From NCBI GenBank assembly GCA_009760855.2, contig WPIO01000020.1, positions 1,141,001 through 1,205,000 of the forward strand: a DNA stretch of 64,000 bases, read 5' to 3'. This DNA comes from Cristatella mucedo. Lineage: Eukaryota; Bryozoa; Phylactolaemata; Cristatellidae. Below are positions 34,255-49,778 of the stretch, piece after piece. Numbering within the stretch: the stretch's first letter is position 1; each line of letters starts with the position of its first letter. A program made the translations under genes and the position numbers. The notes under the pieces are model-generated. The model saw only the letters and a program-made list of their open reading frames with translations. It ran no database searches and was not told the origin of the DNA.

Positions 34255-35575
34255 AATAATGATAAAGCACTTGATAAAGCACCCTCAGAGAGCTCAATCT
34301 CTGTCTATGCGCTTTACAATTGCTGCAAAGGGAAACGCGATTGAATGGTGAGTAATATCATGCATGATAAACAATATGAATAACATGGTTAGGGGTGATA
34401 TGCACACGGTAAGCATGCAAATGTGGTTAGTGGCAGCATGCACAGTGTCAGCACCCATAGCACATGAAGAACGAATCACAGGGACCCACTAAATGATGTC
34501 CTAAAAGTTCTTTTTAAATGTGGTCAAGTCAGGGGATGTTCTGACGCAAGTCGGGAGTGAGTTCCAGGCTTTGGGAGCATACGAACTAAATGCACGGTAT
34601 CCAAGGGATTTGCATGAACATGCTTATGTAAACGACGTTACTTTCTTTTGAGCAGCATGAAAGCTTGTGTCAGAGCTGCTGATCCAGTCTGTTTCAGTCT
34701 AGCAGTGTAGCTGGCGCTCCATCGCGTTTTTGAGGTTTGTATGAAGTATTGGGAAACTGTTGGATTCCGAAAAGTGGGTTGTACGATGCTTGGCCTGGTG
34801 GGGGAGTAGATCTGAGAGATAGGCTGAAGCCAAAGAATGAAGTGACCTAAAAGTGAGCGACAAAACCTTGAAGTCAATCCGTTGCTTGACTGGTAGCCAG
34901 TGCAGGTCTGCGAGAAGTGGTGTGGTGTGGTAACTGCGATGCTCACGACAGACAAGCCTAGCGGCAGAGTTTTGCACCAGCTGTAATCGCCTAATTGCAC
35001 ATGCCGGTAGGCCAGCAAGCAGTGAGTTACAGACGTCAAGACGGGATGTCACGAATGCATGGATCTCCTTAGACGTGGTTTCCTTATCTAAACAAACCTG
35101 AATTTTAGCAATGTTATGTAGCTGAAAGTAGGCAGACTTGACTGTGGAGCTAATGTGGTCGTCTAACGAGAGGTCACTTTCAAATATGACACCTAGATTT
35201 CGAGCTGATTCAACGGGAGATATGCTGGCAAAGCCTTTTTTGAGAGTCAGCCTTTCCATTTTCTGAATCTCACTGGGTTTGCCCATAACTAGTAAGTTAG
35301 TTTTATCATCGTTTAGTTTGAGAAAATTTGCTACCATCAATTTGCGGATGTCATCAATACAAGCAGCAAGTGAGTTGAGAGAATTCGAGGTGCTCGAAGG
35401 CTGGGAGGGATCAAAGCAAAGGTACAATTGAGTGTCATCCGCAAAGGAGTGAAAGCCTATATTGTGCTTGGCAATCACATCAGCAAGAGGGAGAGTATAA
35501 ACCGTGAAAAGAACCGGACCTAGCACGGAGCTCCGAGGTACCCCATATTTCAGAGGTACCTCGGATAATCTTTGT
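34255..35575 (-). mobile_element. L2-clade LINE, 5'-truncated, long open RT frame
   Basis: The open frame 35526-34699 (275 codons) has LGPVLFTVYTLPLADVIAKH, a SFADDTQLYLCF catalytic loop, the C-terminal HAFVTSRLDVCNSLLAGLPA, ADLHWLPVKQRIDF and HQAKHRTTHFSESN. The 3'UTR runs to the ATT-type end near 34255. Starts at nearly the same 5' point as the 16.7-kb copy. Its FADD in place of YADD is also seen in other non-LTR RTs. The most intact L2 coding fragment here; the endonuclease is missing. Confidence 0.85.
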
Positions 35576-40177: not shown

Positions 40178-40342
40178 TTCAAGGTGCACCAGGTAAGGCG
40201 GTTGCTTTCACGACCTTGTTCTCGAGGTCGTGGGTTTGATTCCTGCGGTGGGCGATTCTTTATCGTCACTGCAAGCGCTGGTGATAGCCACAAAGGCTCT
40301 TCAGTCGCTATACAAAAAGAGGCTGTTTAATCAGCTAGGATT
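40178..40342 (+). mobile_element. SINE family B
   Basis: AGGTAAGGCGGTTGCTTTCA head (5' truncated), CGTGGGTTTGATTCCTGC B box, AAAGGCTCTTCAGTCGCTAT body, end CTGTTTAATCAGCTAGGA. Confidence 0.85.
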
Positions 40343-40399
40343 TAATATTTATTTATCTAAGGTGCCTTAAGGTGCCAGTAGCATCCAAGCCCCTTTAAT

Positions 40400-40553
40400 C
40401 CTGTGCTCCGACCTACTGATCTGCAATACCTCCGAATCAGGCTTTCCTCTGTGCTATCTGGCCGACTCACATTTAAGACGCAAGCTGTGCAACCTCAAAT
40501 CCTAATAACGATCCGACGGTCACTGTACCAAATATTAAGATGATAAGAACAGA
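40400..40553 (-). pseudogene. U2 snRNA 3' part (degenerate), downstream flank of element A
   Basis: Minus strand begins TCTGTTCTTATCATCTTAAT, the U2 sequence just after the branch-site recognition region, and degenerates; GGTATTGCAG of stem-loop IV is still visible near 40420-40430. Sm site and stem-loop III are not recognisable. It marks the 3' junction of retrotransposon A. Confidence 0.7.
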
Positions 40554-40594
40554 ATCATAACAGTTTATTGGATTCTGTTTACATACAGATGGCC

Positions 40595-42739
40595 TCAGTC
40601 TAGTGACGACAGACGGACACGACTGATACTAAGCAGACCCAGACGGCTCATCCAGCACTGCTGAAACAGAGCAAGCTCTTCGCTGTTGGACATCCAGCTT
40701 TGCTCGACCGGCCAGCCGTGGGGGTTCCGGATTCGCCTGCGAGGCCGTCGGCCCCCTAGCAGTAACTCATTGCCCCTTGCCGGCTCCAGCTCATAACGCG
40801 ACAGTGCTTGGTCGGGCCCGTTGGATCCCGACGCTAGACACGACCCGGAATCGTCGGTCCCCCTTGCAGTTGCTCTGCTCAGTGTACCGTCAGCTCCCCT
40901 AGCGGGTTCCGAAGCTACAGACGTTTGGCTTGTGGCACCCGGACCCAGGCAGCTCATCGCAGCGCTTGAGCTACAGTCCATTCCACCTCGTCCTGCCGCT
41001 CGGGGAGACTGACAAACTACACCGAACACTACTCTTGCTACACCGCCCGAGCAGTCGATGGTGTCGCTCACACACAACGTCTGCATGAGCTTTCAGTAAT
41101 TGACCCGGAGGGCAGAGAGCCTGGTCTCGTTGACCGGGTGCCAGCGTTAGCGCCTCCCTCGAAGGAGCCCCACCCCCGGGAAGGAAGATCATGCGTGCTG
41201 TGTCAGACGAAGCCCCTTTCAGGACCTTGGTCGCGGCGTCCAGGCCTTCATTCGCCACCAGACTCACGACCGGATCTGGCGATGTGAGCATCCTGCAGGC
41301 CTAAGTAGCCTGCAGGATGTCGATCTCCTGCCGAATTGGGACGTATCTGAGTCCCAACGCTCGGGGAGAGTGGAAGAACCCGGACGTGGCCCTCAGCTGC
41401 ATGGAGCAGGCGTGCCTGCAAAGCTCGCGGACAGCAGCATCCACCGGAGCAAAGAACTTCTTTTGCAGCCATTTCGCTCGCACAAGGTATTCCAGGCGCG
41501 GCAGCAGGAAAGTACGCAGGGCGTCTAGCTTCTGCCAGGGCGCGAGGGGGGAGGTCTGCACACGGAGAATGTCTCTAGCGAGAGACGCTTGTCGAGTCTG
41601 CGTACTTGTTGCCAACAAAGTCGATGAACTGCTGTTAGACCCCCGAGTGCTGCAGCACCTCAAGAACACTCGGAAACGCGTTCTGCAGGTCCACGAAGGC
41701 CCTGCAGAGGGCGCGGTTCGTCTTTGTCGCGTCGGCCAACGCTGACTCGACCAGGTACGATTTGCTCGAGGTAGCCTTCACATCCTGGGTGGAAGCCCTT
41801 CTGCTGCGGAGACAGGAGAGCATTCGCACAGGTATGACGTCAGGTGCATGGCCAAGCACCCCGAAAGGAGCTAATATAGGGTTGGCAGCAGTGAGATTGG
41901 CCGAAAGTTGACGGCTCATTGGGGTCCCCCTTTTTTGTGGATGAGGACCGGATGGCCCTCCTTCCACGCCGGGGGGATGTCCCCAAAGGACAGGCAGCCG
42001 TTCAACGCCGTTGTCACCAGGTGACATCGGGCATCGACCGCCTTGACCTGGTGGTACTCGAGCCTGTCCGGCCCCCGTGACGTTTTACTCGCGACACAGA
42101 CGTTGCATCACCTCTTCCCGGCGGAGGAGAGGTCAGGCTCCTGCCTTGCGGCCGGGGCCTGGCCTCCATCATGCTGGCCAGGCAGGCCTGTAGGGCTTGG
42201 CCTCAGCGGCCCCAGAAGGACCGAAGGCTTCGTGGCACCCGGCATAGGCTGTCGGGGCGGGCAGAGCACCGACCGGACAGCTCTACTCCGGTTGCGGCGG
42301 TACAGCAGCTATCAGGCGCGTTGCAGGCTCCATCCTGTGCCTCCTGCCCCCAACTGGTGGGTAAGGCAGGGCTCCTCTGGTTCCTCCTCGTCACCCGCGC
42401 ACGACTTGCTCAGGGCCTGATGCAGTTTGACCTGTTTCCGGCCCAGAGCCACCGACATTGCACGAGAGAAGGCGGGCCAGTCGGAGGAGTCAACCCTAGC
42501 GGAGAGGCGGTCGGTCCATGCAGACACGAAGACTGATGACGTCTCATCCCGTTCCCTTGCATCGTCCCCTTGCTGTGGGAAGCAGGCTCCACCAACGACC
42601 GTCAGGGGAGATAACTCGTCAGCACCTGATGTGCATTTATACAGTGGATGTGCTCGCAAGAGGTCGTGCCGGCGGTCAAGGTGGAGAGCGCCCCGCTGTG
42701 CGTACCGGCCGACGCTGAGCCAGAGGTCCCGTCCCTCAT
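40595..42739 (-). pseudogene. Element A ORF2 remnant (RT core and endonuclease deleted)
   Basis: ATG at 42739-42737 overlaps the ORF1 stop as ATGA. Recognisable pieces in order: N-terminal SSVFVSAWTDRLSARVD (about 42500), SYLVESALADATKTNRALCR and AFVDLQNAFPSV (RT motifs to A, about 41700), then directly SPLAPWQKLDALRTFLLPRL (thumb, about 41520), NEGLDAATKVLKGASSDTA (about 41220), WHPVNETRLSALRVNY and KLMQTLCVSD (41130-41070), then the EPARGADGTLSRA-type C-terminal repeats. Compared with B, about 170 residues with the catalytic ADD and about 270 residues with CCHC and PD-D are absent. Confidence 0.75.
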
Positions 42740-43800
42740 TTCGCTCTCCGACCCCTTTTGGAGGTCCGCCCGACCCTGCCCACCACAACCGTGGCAGGAG
42801 CGGGCGTGACCAGAGGGGTAATTTCCTCTGCTGACTCTTCCTCAACCTCGCTATCAACCTCGAGGACTCCCGAGCTTGCTGGGCTGACTGAAGCCTCCAG
42901 CTCAGAGCCGGAGTCGAAGGCCGTCTCGCTCTCCTGCCTGCTCGCCAGAGGGGAGTCGCAAAGCACGATCCCCGACGTCACTGGCAGGGAGCCCTTGGAG
43001 GGGCGCACTGCCTTTGCGGCCTGCTCAGTCTCGGCATTCTCCGCGATGGTGATGAAATCGGTCTCCCCCATCTCGTACTCCCACTCCTCTAGGGGAGGTC
43101 TGCGAGGTGTTTTCGCTTTAGGGCAGTCCTTACGGGCATGCCCCTCACTCCCACAACCCCTACACCTTGCCTTGATTGGGCAAGCCTTGACCACGTGGCC
43201 CACTCTCTGACACCTGAAGCAGCGGACATGCGGGCAGTCCGCCGCCAGGTGGCCCGTCTCACCGCAGCTGTGGCACGTCCGGTTTGGGCATATCCCGGCT
43301 TTGTGGCTGCTGACATTGCACAGCGAGCACGACGGGGGCATCCCCGGGTAGCGGACTCTTGCCGGAGCGTTGCACAGAGGAAACAGCAGGGTCGCCGGGA
43401 GCAGCTTCACCAGGTTGACAATGACCTGCCACATCCCGTTCAAAACGTTCGTCCCTGCCATCACGCCCCTGCGCTGGATGCCCACCTCGCCGTAGCGGGC
43501 AAGCACTTCCGCCACCGTCTTCAAGGGGACCTGCGGGTGCACTCCTACCAGGGTCACCACCACCGAGCTGTCTGCCTGGTGACGAGCTCCCGGGAACGTC
43601 TTGTGGAGGATCTCTGCCGCCCCCTTAGCACGTCCCGCCGTGAGGAACTCGAGCTCTACATGTTTGAGGGCCTTGTCCTCAAAGATGTATCTTAGGCCTT
43701 CCATGACGGCCCTCCCCGGGCGACTGTATAGGATGTCGCTCGAGTTGATACCGTCGTACCCCCACACTACCTGCGCTGAGGCAGGGACAGTCATGATCAT
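42736..43800 (-). CDS. Element A ORF1: zinc-knuckle nucleic-acid-binding protein
   Basis: Open for 354 codons from ATG at 43800 (the frame stays open to 44076 from a TTG). Residues 1-150 are a conserved domain shared with B (HKTFPGARHQADSSVVVTLV, GIHPxV-type). Four C-x2-C-x4-H-x4-C knuckles follow at residues 158-171, 176-189, 194-207 and 213-226, then an acidic Ser/Glu-rich tail. Probably binds element RNA, as ORF1 proteins of other LINEs do. The stop overlaps the ORF2 start as ATGA (42739-42736), suggesting coupled reinitiation. Unusually intact given the ruined ORF2. Confidence 0.8.
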   Translation of the reverse strand: MIMTVPASAQVVWGYDGINSSDILYSRPGRAVMEGLRYIFEDKALKHVELEFLTAGRAKGAAEILHKTFPGARHQADSSVVVTLVGVHPQVPLKTVAEVLARYGEVGIQRRGVMAGTNVLNGMWQVIVNLVKLLPATLLFPLCNAPARVRYPGMPPSCSLCNVSSHKAGICPNRTCHSCGETGHLAADCPHVRCFRCQRVGHVVKACPIKARCRGCGSEGHARKDCPKAKTPRRPPLEEWEYEMGETDFITIAENAETEQAAKAVRPSKGSLPVTSGIVLCDSPLASRQESETAFDSGSELEASVSPASSGVLEVDSEVEEESAEEITPLVTPAPATVVVGRVGRTSKRGRRAK

Positions 43801-44077
43801 CTCCTCTCTCTTTGGGACGGTCCTCGGATGAAAGTCTGTGTCAGGACGACCTGAGCAGGAACCAACCACCGGCAGACGATCGGTCGAACAGGAAACACTG
43901 GCAGTCAAGGCAGGCAGAAATGAACAGGAACAGCTGGTAGACGAACACCAGGGGAGCAGGAACCACCACCAGCAGGCGATCCACCACGTTCTCCTACGGC
44001 CGGTTATATTATTATCCAGAGCCGGTATATGGAGCTGAAAAATATATATATGCAGACATGTGTTATACAGATGCAAT

Positions 44078-44130
44078 CTGAACTATACAGACTACATGAC
44101 AATCCTAGCCAAGAAGGCCGAGAACGCTGG
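44078..44130 (-). pseudogene. U2 snRNA 5' half, upstream flank of element A
   Basis: Minus strand reads AGCGTTCTCGGCCTTCTTGG then CTAGGATTGTCATGTAGTCT, aligning with the U2 5' stem-loop I and branch-site region, and ends CTGTATAGTTCAG, which resembles the CTGTTCTTATCAG repeated at the 3' junction. That motif may therefore be a target-site duplication. Confidence 0.8.
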
Positions 44131-44216
44131 CTAGCAGCAACCGAGCAGCAGGTTCAGTCTGCTCTGGCAGCTCGATGTGGCACTTCATTTCCTTCGCATA
44201 TTTCTCCCCTCGAGGG

Positions 44217-44368
44217 GGAGTGAGCCCATCCTGGAGGTACTGCAATACCAGGCGAACTCGTGGTGAGGTTGGAGCAAGCTCCTAGACCTCACCAATTTCC
44301 AAAAATCAGATTAATATCATAACGATCCGATGGACCGTGTATCAGATATTAAGCTGATAAGAACAGAT
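44217..44368 (-). pseudogene. U2 snRNA 3' part, downstream flank of element B
   Basis: Minus strand starts ATCTGTTCTTATCAGCTTAA, passes GATTTTTGG (Sm site), AGGAGCTTGCTCC (stem-loop III) and CCTGGTATTGCAGTACCTCC (stem-loop IV, perfect), and ends near CTCACTCCCC. Stem-loop II is diverged. This is the best evidence that B inserted in a U2 gene. U2 normally base-pairs with the intron branch site in the spliceosome; the 5' half is missing on B's other side. Confidence 0.85.
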
Positions 44369-44617
44369 TGATAATGTTTATTGGGTACTGCTCTCACTAC
44401 AGTAGGCCTCAGTCTGTCGGGACGACACCCGATCGCGACTGGTACACAGAGGGCCCGGACGGCCAATCCGGGGCGCTAGGGACAGAGTGGCTTATTTCGC
44501 ACACTCCACGCTGCTGGACAGCCAGCTGCGCTCGACCAGCCTGCAGAGCAGGTTTCGGTCCGCTTGCGCTGCCGCCGGGTGCCGGCACTAATCCTACGCT
44601 AACACTGTCGCTTGCCC

Positions 44618-47600
44618 TCACGAAGGTGATGGGCCGCCGTTGCCCCTTGCGGGCGCCAGCGCAGAACGCGACAGCTCGCCACCAGGCCCCCTATAGGGTC
44701 CTGGTGCTACTCGCAGCCCGGAGACACCGGTCCCCCTAGCGGGTGCCGATGCTACGCGCGACTGGGTGCCGCTTGATCCCCTTGCGGGAGCCTGCGTTGC
44801 ACCACTCAGTGCGCCGTCCGCCCCCCTAGCGGGTGCGGGCGCTAGCAACGCTTGCGCAGTGCCTGGGCCCCTAGTGGGCCCTAGCTCTAGCGACGCTTGC
44901 GCTCCGAGTCCTCCTTCATTCTCTTGCCTCGGGAGGCCGACGAACTTCCTCCATACCGCAGCTGAGCCATTGATGGCGTCGCTCACGCAGAGCTTGCGCA
45001 TCAGCTTGCGGTATTTAAAGTTCACTCGCAGGGCCTGCAGCGTGGCCTCGTTCGCTGGGTGCCAGGTGCCAAGGGCGCCAACGACGAAGGCGTGCTGCTC
45101 GACGTGTCTGCCTTGCCTGCGGAGTTCGTCGGCCAAGCCCTGGTACTTTTCGATCTTCCGGGTCGCTGCCCTGTCCAACGCATCTATACCGTTGTCAAAC
45201 GGTACAGCAACGTCGACAATGACAGCGTAGCGGCCCGTGTCCACGACCAGGTCCGGGCGGAGGAGAGGGGACGGGTCCAGCTCGTGATGACGGTCTACCC
45301 GGGCGTAGCGTTGGAGTGCTCTCGGTAGGGCTTCAACGAGGCGCTTCAGGATGGCGTCGTGCCGCTCCGTGATGGTGGGCATCATCGGCTTGCAGTTGTT
45401 GATGGCGTGCGGCAGCGTCTCGTCGACGCCGCACCCTCGCCTGCATTCCACCGGGTGCTCGGTGTCCCATCTTGCTCTGACGACGGCACGTGGCAGTATG
45501 TCGAGTCTTGCCCTGAAAATAAACCGCCAGGACGCGAAAGAGAGAGCAAAGCCAGATAGGAGAAAGTGGGAGTGATTCGCGTGCTTGTCTGTCGCCAGAC
45601 ACGCGGCTACTTTGCCCTGATCACGCTTGGAGCACCACTCCTTGGCCCAGCCAGCCGATATGTCCTTGCGGATTATCGACACCATCGTCTTGGTGTTAAA
45701 CTGTGGCGTCGCATGCTCTCCTGCGCTCCATCCTAGGCTCAAGGCGCCCTGCGTGTAGATGGTCGCTACGTTGAGCCTCTTGAGAGCCTGTCTGGCTTCC
45801 GACCAGAGGGAGCGCGAGCCATGGTGGGCGCCCTCCTCGAACGATCCTCCTGAAAGGAAAATCGTACGTGCTTCATCCGAAGGCGTGCCTCGGAGCACCC
45901 TGATGGCATTGTCCAGACCCTCCGTTGCGACCGTTCGTATCAGTGGGTCGCTGGAGACCAGCATCCTGCACGCTTGGGTAGCGTGATGGATGTCTATCTC
46001 TTGCTTCATGGGGATGAAGCCGAGGCCTCCGTACATCCGAGGTGCGTGGAAGAAGCCAGTCGTCGCCCTAAGCGGAAGAGAGCAAGCATATCTACAGAGG
46101 TCACGGGTGGCTCTGTCGACAGGCTGCAAGAGCTTCTTCTTCAGCCACTTCGCCCTGCCCAGGTATTCGAGCCTCGGGAGCATGAAGGTGCGCAGGGCGT
46201 CCAGCTTCTGCCAGGGCGCGAGGAGCGAGTTCTGCAGGAGGAGAATGTCCCTAGAGAGGGACGTGGCTGCAGCCTCGACTTCGGCCCTGGGGTAGGCAAA
46301 ACCCTGCGGCGCTCCCAGGTACTCGTACGCCTCCTCTTGCGGCAGGAGAGGGATCTCGGCGCCTGCAATGAGGAAGACAGAGCGGTCTGTTGCGGCCACA
46401 TTACGCAGCAGAATGCGGCACTTACCTGGGCGAAAGGTTAGGCCAACCTTCGCCGCGGTGTTGTCTGCCCTATGAAGCAACCTCTGCAAGCTGAGGGGTG
46501 ACCTGGCGAAGAGGGCTAGGTCATCGGCCAGGGCACATACCGATAAGTTCGTAGAGCCGAGGGAGTAGCCATGCCTATCAGAAGCAGAAGCAAGCGAGCG
46601 GACAAGCGTCTCAATGACCGCATCAAACAGAATGGGCGACAGCGGATCGCCCTGCCTGACTCCGGCGGCTGCTGGGAAGGGGGCCAGCGACTCCGAGCCT
46701 AGGCGCAGCACAATCGTCGATCCTTGGTAGATCTTGGAGACGAGGTCTATCAGCTGCTGCTCCACTCCCAGGTGCCGCAGAGTCTCGAAGAGAGAGTCAT
46801 GCGGGACACTGGGGAAGGCGTTCTGGAGGTCCAGGAAGGCACCGCAGAGGGGCCTCTTCCTCTTTGTGGCGTCTCGGAGAGCCGATTCGACCAGAAAGGA
46901 CTGTTCGAGGCAGCCCTCGCAGCCCGGCAGGAAGCCCTTCTGCTGTGGAGAAAGGAGCTCGTGCTCGCGAAGAAAGGCTGTGAGGCGCGCGGCCAGGCAT
47001 CCCGACAGGAGTTTGTACAGCGTTGGCAGCAGCGTGATCGGGCGGAAGTTGCCCGGGTCAGCTGAGTCCCCCTTTTTGTGGATTAGGACCGTGTGGCCCG
47101 TCTTCCAGTCGGGGGGGGGGGGACATCGCCAAACAGTAGACAGCCATTCAGGACCTCTGAGACAAGGCTGCAGCGGGCATCAACTGCCTTCAGATGGCAG
47201 TATTCAAGCCTGTCGGCCCCTGGGGACGTGTTGCTGGCCCTGCGAAGCCTAGCCGCCACTTCAGTCTTCTGCAGGGGGGCAGTGAGAACCCGATCTTGTG
47301 GTTGGGCTCTCGCGTCCATTATTCTGGCCATCGTGCATCGTAGACCCGCTGTGTCAACTGGTCTAGCCTCGGCTTCCTTCAGCCAGAATTCGCGGCATGC
47401 GGCGCGGTCGCTCGAGAAGGTCGTGGGCATTGGCTGCAGCACGCTACGTACTGCTCTGCCACGATTGCAGCGGTAAAGTTTCTGCAGCCTCGAGGCCTGT
47501 TGCGGGCTCCAGCCCCTCCTAGAGGGGGGCTGGCTCGCCGGCAGTCGGGGGTTCGAGGCTGGGGATGCGCAGACGCTCGACCTGCCAAGCTGAAGCCTGT

Positions 47601-47808
47601 GTTTGACTAGGCGGCGCGCAAGCGTAAGCCATGCAGCGGACATCTCGGCTACAGAGCGGCAGAAGCCTTCCCAGTCCCTAGCTGCCATGCAGGTCGCGAT
47701 GGTGGTGCTCCAGCTCTCTACGAAGCCGGAGGGCTCGTCTGGATCTGGCTCCGGCCTCGGGTCCTCCATTTCCTCCTCCTCCCGTGCTGTCAGGAAGGCA
47801 CTAGACAT
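44618..47808 (-). CDS. Element B ORF2: reverse transcriptase with restriction-like endonuclease
   Basis: About 1,063 residues from ATG at 47808, with one frame break in a 12-G run (47111-47122). Order: acidic N-terminus; RT domain 0/1 (SNTSPGADRLEYCHLKAV); GNFRPITLLPTLYKLL; motif A region LDLQNAFPSV; GVRQGDPLSPILFD; catalytic LADDLALFARS (about 46530); thumb PWQKLDALRTFMLPRLEY; CCHC finger C-x3-C-x7-H-x4-C (about 45440-45390); RPD-x12-D then KIEKY (about 45260-45170), the R2-type nuclease. The C-terminus has about six 15-residue repeats of the form APARGxxGxxSxxxx (44881-44621). ORF2 lacks the N-terminal C2H2/Myb fingers of R2; the zinc fingers are in ORF1 instead. Start overlaps the ORF1 stop. 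Confidence 0.85.
44621..44881 (-). repeat. 45-bp coding repeats at ORF2 C-terminus
   Basis: About five and a half 15-residue units, consensus APARGxxGxxSxxxx, with GPTRG and GPYRG variants. Related units occur at the same place in element A, so the repeats predate the split of the two families. Confidence 0.8.
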
Positions 47809-49174
47809 TGCCGGGCTTAGGGGTCTTCCCTCTACCCTCTGGGGGCCTATTTGCTAGGGTGACCCTGGTTCTGGCTCGAAGGCTTCTCTGGGTGGAGGAG
47901 TCACTATCCCTGTCTGAGGGGGGATGCAGGGTTAGTGGCGCGGCCAGTCTTTTTCCCGTCTGGGCTGGTGTGCTGCGTGCGACTGGCATACATTCCACTC
48001 CTCCCTGCAGGACCGTGTCATCGTCATCCGACTCCGACATTTCCTCCCATGTCACTCATGTCGGCTATGCGGAGTGATCCCTGAGGGCTGGCGGGCTCCT
48101 CAGAGGATGCACTCTGGGTGTCCACCAGGTCCACTGAGGCCTGCTCCTCGCGTGGGGGGAGGGCAGCCACAGGTGGGGGCCTAGGGGGGGCACTCAGGGC
48201 CTCCCCCCCAGGCGCTGCTGGGAGTGTGGCCAGGGCTTTTTCGGCTTCTGCAGCCACACTCAGGAGGGCCTCCTCGTCGGCGTCTGACGCCCAGGAAGTC
48301 TCCAAGATGGCCTTTCGCCTAGGCCTGCTCTTCTGGCACTCTTTGCTCAAGTGCCCCTCGGCCCCGCACACACCGCATTTCTGCGCAACGGTGCAGGAGC
48401 GAGCCATGTGGCCTGGTTTCCTGCACCGGAAACACTTCACCAGGGGGCAGTCTGCCATGTAGTGCCCTAGTTGGCTGCACCCATTGCAGACCCTATTTGG
48501 GTATAGCAGCGCCTTGTGGCCAGCTTGGCCACACTGTCCGCACGGGGTGGCATGCCCATGTATCTTACCGCCACCAGGCCCTTGCTGCCTTCAAAGGACA
48601 TCGAGAGGGGGAGGGGTTTCTCCATCTCGAACAGGATCCGTCTGTTCCCGTTCGCGATGTTGGTGCCCCTATAGGTGCCCAATTTGTGCCTCAGCACTTT
48701 GCCAAAGGCAGATAGTGCTGCTGCCACCACCTCCACTTTAACTCTGGGGTGGATCCCTATCAGTGTGACCACGATAGAGCGGTCGACCTGGTGCCTCGCT
48801 CCTGGAAATGATTTCACCAGGACTGCTGCCGCCTCTTTTGCTTGGGCCTCGGTTGAGAAGCCCAGCTCAAACTGCTTCCGCAGTTTGTTATTGTATCCGT
48901 AGCGCAAGCCACGTAGGGTCGATACACCATTTCTCACGCACAAGATCTCGTCTATCGACTGTATCTCGAACCCTCTGCAGCCCGGGACCGAGGCCGGGAT
49001 CACCACTTGGAGAGGGTCTCCTCCTGAGGGTGGGGAGATCCCTCCGAACACCTGCTCGAGGGCAGGCACACCTGCAGCAGCCGCATACGATAGGCTCGCT
49101 GGTCTCTGGGGGGCCACTTGGGGGGGCAGCACACCGGGGGGGGGGGGGGGGGTGGTTTTAGGGGGGGCCGGCAT
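47801..49174 (-). CDS. Element B ORF1: zinc-knuckle protein (two frame breaks)
   Basis: ATG at 49174 (MPAPPKTTPPPPPGVLPP) opens the first frame, which holds the domain shared with element A (KSFPGARHQVDRSIVVTLIG). A missing base near 48544-48547 shifts the frame. The next frame has one degenerate knuckle (last Cys is Tyr) and three good C-x2-C-x4-H-x4-C knuckles (CNGC, CFRC, CGVC), then an Ala/Pro-rich tail. A third shift near 48055 would bring in an acidic SESDDDD segment ending GNV and a TAG at 47801-47803. That TAG overlaps the ORF2 ATG by 8 nt. Confidence 0.7.
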
Positions 49175-49317
49175 TTTACTGACCAGCTCAGCTGGGTGGA
49201 GGGGCGCCCTTGGAGGGGGGGCAGGCCTTATGGGAGGCAGCGAGACACAGCACTGTTGGCTCTAGGCGGGCTTACATGCCGAAGCAGCAGGCGCAATTGC
49301 CTCAGCACTAGTGGAGA

Positions 49318-49735
49318 GTTCGCTGCAGATCGCGGAATATCTAGAAACTTCAAATCTGCTTGTCGGAGCGTTCGCTGGCTGGCAGCAGAGTGCTGCACTT
49401 TGTTTCAAGCATTTCGCACTCGAATATTACATTTCGCACGAGTTCGCTGCAGATCGCGGAATATCATAAAACTTCAAATCTGCTTGTCGGAGCGTGTGCT
49501 GGCTGGCAGCAGAGTGCTGCACCTCGTTTTGAGCATTTCGCACTCAAATAACACATTTCCCACGAGTTCGCAGCTGATCGCAGAATATCTAGAAACTTCA
49601 AATCTGCATGTGGGAGCGTGTGCTGGCTGGCAGCAGAGTGCTGCACCTCGTTTTGAGCATTTCGCACTCGAATAACACATTTCGCACGAGTTCGCAGCTG
49701 ATCGCAGAATATCTAGAAACTTCAAATCTGCATGT
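49318..49735. repeat. 124-bp tandem repeat, about 3.4 units
   Basis: The GTTCGC(T/A)GC(A/T)GATCGC motif recurs at 49318, 49442, 49566 and 49690, exactly 124 bp apart, with few differences. The array abuts the 5' end of element B and may be a 5'UTR promoter array. It is cut at the right by an L2-type tail with a palindrome. Confidence 0.9.
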
Positions 49736-49778
49736 GGTTAGCGGCAACGTACACGTTGTGTACGTTGCCGCTAACCAC
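49734..49778. repeat. Perfect 21-bp palindrome with 3-nt loop
   Basis: 49734-49754 pairs without mismatch with 49758-49778 around GTT. The arm GTTGCCGCTAACCAC resembles GCTGCCACTAACCAC of the L2 3'UTR, so it probably arose by inverted duplication at the insertion boundary of the following L2 tail. Confidence 0.95.

Follow-up and report, generated by a model that had tools for sequence, protein, structure and literature searches.

Utopia-like LINEs with a separate ORF1 at U2 snRNA sequences of the bryozoan Cristatella mucedo

In a 64,000-nucleotide stretch of the Cristatella mucedo genome (assembly GCA_009760855.2, contig WPIO01000020.1, positions 1,141,001 to 1,205,000 of the forward strand; G000:C122:1141001-1205000 in our numbering), called the window here, two long interspersed nuclear elements (LINEs), A and B, adjoin sequence of the U2 small nuclear RNA (snRNA). 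An earlier note, made from the letters of the window, had described them as endonuclease-class LINEs in U2 genes, and alignments of their junctions with Rfam and with the genome's own U2 bore this out. The best explanation, which we hold at a probability of about 0.87, is that A and B are insertions of U2-targeting restriction-like endonuclease (RLE) LINEs of the Utopia kind whose lineage has a separate, Type I-like first open reading frame (ORF1). Insertion in U2 is itself known for Utopia, and the new part is the two-protein architecture. The separate ORF1 of both elements had been missed in the note. The whole genome (572 Mb) was searchable.

U2 junctions of the two elements

The minus strand reads, in order, satellite (49735-49316), B, U2 from nt 39 to nt 193 and, about 90 bp further on, a U2-like stretch, A and decayed U2 from nt 40 (Table 1). 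The Rfam match to U2 behind B (RF00004; 44379-44215, minus strand; 121.4 bits, E 4.5e-24, cut-off 46) belongs to the sole family reaching its cut-off within the window, and the alignment spans the Sm site and stem-loops III and IV, which the note had recognised, with zero non-standard pairs marked. Against the genome's own U2 this flank scored 295, and it differs from the complete U2 gene on contig C682 by three mismatches in 155 nt; B ends exactly at U2 (44368), as had been claimed. Behind A, U2 resumes at the predicted base, 40553, and covers nt 40-88 with a score of 63, while 60 mononucleotide shuffles of 20 other loci under the same scoring reached at most 28. Because its Rfam score (16.9 bits) lies below the cut-off, we judged this U2 copy decayed. 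Chance resemblance to U2 is ruled out by the shuffle scores and by the few mismatches to the C682 gene. The insertion site proposed as common to A and B is confirmed at nt 38/39 or 39/40, the position given for Utopia (PMC4640811), and it is repeated in other copies.

The stretch 5' of A aligned with U2 at a score of 19, which was equalled by one of 5,000 dinucleotide shuffles and occurred in 13 of 6,388 window tiles (both strands), every one at the three U2 places. Both U2 halves thus beat shuffled sequence, a comparison that the note had proposed. The alignment does not stop at nt 39 but goes on to about nt 56, as expected of a target duplication. The claim of a U2 5' half before A held in part, since the stretch is U2-like but fits slightly better (22 vs. 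19) to a U2-like site in the spacers of the U2 array. The sequence before A fits a duplication-type left junction, and the original site may have been a U2 gene or this spacer site.

Other parts of the claim needed adjusting. U2 adjoins B on the right, but its left side carries satellite instead. The range first assigned to the elements is valid up to 49316, but its remainder is a block of 124-bp satellite (3.4 copies) that borders B and has at least 278 matches in the genome, in arrays on many other contigs. Its reading as a 5' untranslated repeat of B was rejected, as it is a genome-wide satellite and is not in the copy of B on contig C570. Directly past the block lies a near-perfect inverted repeat (49733-49776), visible in the letters and recovered as a self-match. 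The spacing of some 90 bp that had suggested tandem U2 copies is real, but normal array spacing is 1.6 kb and B is followed by C682-type U2.

Genomic copies and their targets

An Rfam search of the genome for U2 gave 45 matches, of which 34 were near-complete (at least 163 bits) and 11 weaker, including the window's. Thirty-two of the 34 strong genes form an array on contig C672 with a period of about 1.6 kb, and two U2 types, the array type and the C682 type, are present. The C570 copy of B is 95.6% identical to the window copy over 49316-44229, with similarity beginning at 49316. It passes into array-type U2 exactly where the window copy passes into the C682 type, which fixes the 3' boundary of B. 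B is a rather recent 5'-truncated copy, and A is old.

Searching the genome with ORF2 of B gave at least 63 matches, merged into 46 clusters, and 3' regions were taken for 20 of the matches: three had the 3' end of B, 16 that of another family, D, and one belonged to neither. Within the B family, four of five copies (window, C570, C528 and C199; the exception is C36) continue with U2 nt 39. Among the 17 ends of family D (the C570 query copy and the 16 fetched), U2 nt 39 follows in one (C528) and the U2-like spacer site in three, inserted at the position matching the U2 site (C570 and two C672 copies, possibly mutual duplicates). In this small sample B, unlike D, looks strongly U2-specific. Because they were retrieved via U2 itself, additional U2-flanked copies (C570, C624) are uninformative on frequency. 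The U2 junction thus lies at one register in several copies and in different U2 types.

Left junctions are less uniform. U2 before elements ends at nt 58 (C310), 62 (C672), 38 (two C672 copies) or 27 and 32 (two C672 places). With a right start at nt 39, the ends at 58 and 62 correspond to duplications of 20 and 24 nt and those at 27 and 32 to deletions; where U2 ends at nt 38 (L042 and L044 on C672), nt 13-38 is tandemly repeated at the element's left junction. Furthermore, U2 fragments of nt 39-62 (C528) and nt 39-55 (C570) separate the 3' end of an element from a recurrent 5' start of the following one. Since a duplication would leave a whole target upstream of each insertion, trains of elements would be possible. 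C672, which bears the U2 array, and C570 are crowded with ORF1 and ORF2 copies, which often stand in trains.

The U2-like site lies in the spacers of the C672 array (L002-L008, L020, L021), and its exact 26-nt core occurs one to three times in each of the nine array loci examined. In one examined unit, the site corresponds to U2 nt 10-49, scores 24 against U2 (best of 100 shuffles, 18) and begins 226 bp ahead of the gene.

Several of these observations weigh against U2 targeting: U2 is missing behind the C36 copy and amounts to no more than 21 nt behind C528 and 37 nt behind C199, 13 of the 17 family D ends adjoin sequence that is neither U2 nor the spacer site, left junctions vary, and in the window U2 is missing to the left of B and A may be preceded by the spacer site. 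The short pieces would also suit a U2 segment that is the element's own 3' end and travels along with it, so that no U2 site is targeted. However, copies of one family end in two U2 types with pieces of differing length, elements at C310 and C672 have a U2 5' part before them, and C36 and most D-family ends carry no U2; we regard a travelling segment as highly improbable and U2 as the target.

A separate ORF1 beside an RLE-type ORF2

To judge from sequence comparison, B belongs to the RLE class. Residues 490-701 of its ORF2 translation P0001 align to the CCHC-RLE part of R2 retrotransposon proteins in the PDB (47.8 bits), and R2 proteins are also the best relatives of its reverse transcriptase (RT) among solved structures. 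ORF2 of B is open for 830 aa downstream of its frame break, and a Pfam search of the N-terminal piece gave zero family matches, with no endonuclease and no recognised zinc fingers. The class proposed for both elements therefore applies to B, whose RT and C-terminus are R2-like, but A is a wreck without an RT core, so its putative class rests on kinship with B. ORF2 of B closes with a repetitive tail with PARG-like motifs (44618-44900), traces of which are seen in A.

Searched against the genome, ORF1 of A gave 78 matches, which formed 59 clusters. Of the 46 ORF2 clusters, 19, from several families, have a same-strand match no more than 4.5 kb upstream, at a steady distance; the controls were 12 with a same-strand match downstream, which trains would produce, and one and one for the opposite strand. 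At all five readable junctions, from three families, the ORF1 stop overlaps the ORF2 start or is separated from it by a few bases (three copies of the B family, A of the window and an A-like copy on C672); in B, the ATG overlaps the stop (ATGTCTAG). A family-C copy had no start near the ORF1 stop, and the search for an ORF2 start in the A-like copy on C570 found none. The ratio of nonsynonymous to synonymous substitution rates (dN/dS) of ORF1 was 0.12-0.29 in seven pairs, with dS above 1 in three pairs and the frameshifted end included in the two window-B pairs. These data show an ORF1 that is linked to ORF2, meets it stop codon to start codon and evolves under purifying selection.

ORF1 might instead be part of another element lying beside or inside the RLE elements. 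In that direction point the 27 of 46 ORF2 clusters without an ORF1 match upstream, a number that also counts against the two-protein plan, and two database relatives of the RT, P0004 and P0007, with long N-termini and a C2H2-like motif within one ORF. Absence of ORF1 from many clusters is expected, however, because these are 5'-truncated or partial, and a foreign origin is at odds with the steady distance and the stop-start contact in three families. In addition, two weak ORF1 matches (C365, C507) are close to RLE or RT pieces that by eye resemble the same lineage, and neither of the two looked like a LINE with an apurinic endonuclease (APE) and such an ORF1. A foreign ORF1 is improbable in our judgement, and an ORF1 proper to this lineage is preferred.

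In two structure models, ORF1 shows an RRM fold directly upstream of its CCHC knuckles (in B, zf-CCHC was found in the piece 48590-48027). Its product is probably an RNA-binding protein, as far as models indicate; less favourably, the models are poor outside the RRM-like domain and a Pfam search of ORF1 detects no RRM. Among 5.8 billion proteins, no ORF1 homologs were found at E 0.001 (4,374 candidates scored), nor at E 0.01 with an alignment query (7,998 candidates sharing most words), which is weak evidence of absence because candidates must share short words. An RRM upstream of CCHC knuckles defines the Type I ORF1 of the APE LINEs I, Jockey, R1, Tad1, plant L1 and L2 (PMC4120745). The predicted order of domains is shared here, but the partner is an RLE-type ORF2 and no sequence relative was found in those protein searches.

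An APE-style ORF1 and an identical U2 site in the 3' flank would also suit Keno, an APE-type LINE (PMC4640811). However, the RLE part of B aligns to R2, its N-terminal ORF2 piece matched no endonuclease family, and no APE domain was among the Pfam matches; that the elements are Keno is almost certainly wrong.

Table 1. Features of elements A and B and of their U2 flanks (positions in the window)
Feature	Position	Strand	Basis or remark
Element B, 5'-truncated copy of a U2-targeting RLE LINE	44369..49316	-	3' end fixed by C570 copy; similarity to that copy starts at 49316
ORF1 of B, CCHC knuckles and region upstream	47801..49174	-	reading frame broken twice; pieces 49174-48467, 48590-48027, 48055-47801
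ORF2 of B	44618..47808	-	single frame break at C run 47122-47111
Reverse transcriptase domain of B	46313..47083	-	Pfam RVT_1, 114.2 bits, residues 10-266 of P0001
C-terminal CCHC and RLE part of B	45008..45643	-	alignment to PDB R2 proteins
Element A, old decayed relative of B	40554..44074	-	5' end approximate
ORF1 of A, open, 354 aa	42736..43800	-	three zf-CCHC stretches
ORF2 remains of A	40595..42739	-	frame breaks, RT core missing; ATG overlaps ORF1 stop (ATGA)
U2 snRNA gene nt 39-193, 3' flank of B	44214..44368	-	Rfam and genome U2 alignment
U2-like stretch (about nt 6-56), 5' flank of A	44075..44124	-	U2 or U2-like spacer site; shuffle test
Decayed U2 nt 40-88, 3' flank of A	40505..40553	-	Rfam and genome U2 alignment

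Two further repeats were seen in the window. A short dispersed repeat at 40187-40343, 75-92% alike at several other loci, has by eye the look of a tRNA-derived short interspersed nuclear element, and tRNA gene calling there called none. A fragment of another LINE reverse transcriptase lies at 34699-35526, with RVT_1 below its cut-off.

Relation to known elements and significance

A protein database search with the RT of B gave 194 relatives at E 0.001 among 7,991 candidates scored. Of these, 120 were listed, most nameless, and the named ones include sequences from Pycnogonum, octocorals, nematodes, insects, a springtail and a sponge. Viral contigs contributed zero relatives in one protein scan and one U2 pattern scan. 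RT trees of 53 and 27 rows, in which three R2 rows served as the named references and doubled as outgroup, joined B to family D (98/96 in one of the trees), then to P0003, family C, P0004 and P0007 (100/100); P0004 and P0007 stand next to family C, which has two ORFs. The elements share with R2 the RLE class, and R2 is the best match of B among solved structures, but R2 has a 28S target and a single ORF, whereas here the flanks are U2 and the RT of B falls apart from the three R2 rows in both trees. CRE-clade elements such as SLACS have two ORFs.

Utopia is an RLE LINE of the NeSL clade whose U2 target resumes at nt 39 and which generally, not universally, encodes one protein with one to three N-terminal zinc fingers; several families, some strict and some loose, may share a genome, tandem insertions are reported in Nasonia, and arthropod Utopias reportedly lack target duplications (PMC4640811). 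The C. mucedo elements resemble it in the RLE part after the RT, in U2 resuming at nt 39 (four of the five B-family copies examined, B of the window among them) or nt 40 (A), in the coexistence of strict and loose families and in tandem insertions. They differ from it in three respects: ORF1 is separate, with CCHC knuckles and a predicted RRM fold; no fingers are recognised at the N-terminus of ORF2; and there are duplications of 17-24 nt. Since they depart from the one-protein plan and R2 supplied the sole named reference rows for the placement of their RT, we file them as Utopia-like and not as plain Utopia.

Two-ORF, U2-targeting RLE elements may already be catalogued, for example in Repbase, and the plan may be ordinary in some invertebrates. 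Variable domain structures and the word "generally" in PMC4640811 allow for this, and P0003, the closest database RT, has a short N-terminus without a C2H2-like motif, on contigs (up to 5,646 bases) that could fit an ORF1. On the other hand, literature searches, with Repbase outside their scope, brought up no RLE LINE with an RRM-CCHC ORF1, and PMC5678591 describes the RLE group as single-ORF. We consider an earlier catalogue entry possible but rather unlikely.

For a Utopia-kind lineage with its own ORF1, the following course of insertion can be proposed. The ORF1 protein, with its RRM fold and knuckles, would coat the element RNA, and the ORF2 protein would be translated off the same RNA via termination-reinitiation. 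The latter may recognise the left part of the U2 site (..GTGTAGTA) and nick the bottom strand just 3' of it, and by target-primed reverse transcription the element would be copied onto the U2 end. Top-strand cleavage may, in some families, lie some 17-24 nt downstream, whereby the upstream U2 part would retain the whole target, take a further element and give rise to trains of element, U2 nt 39-62 and element. HDV-like ribozymes at element 5' ends were absent among the family matches up to E 5 at five loci.

It is conceivable, at somewhat less than even odds, that an RLE LINE lineage independently gained a Type I, APE-style ORF1 and dispenses with N-terminal zinc fingers, so that an R2-group element would act as a two-protein ribonucleoprotein like Jockey or L1. 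Cross-insertion at U2 is a possible route of ORF1 capture, since Keno, an APE LINE, uses the same U2 site and duplications allow adjacent insertion. A site-specific RLE element with an RRM-CCHC ORF1 would make the contribution of ORF1 to target-primed reverse transcription testable at a fixed target. Natural controls for target recognition lie within one genome: besides true U2 sites there is a U2-like spacer site whose right half differs, and the related family D is found mostly outside U2.

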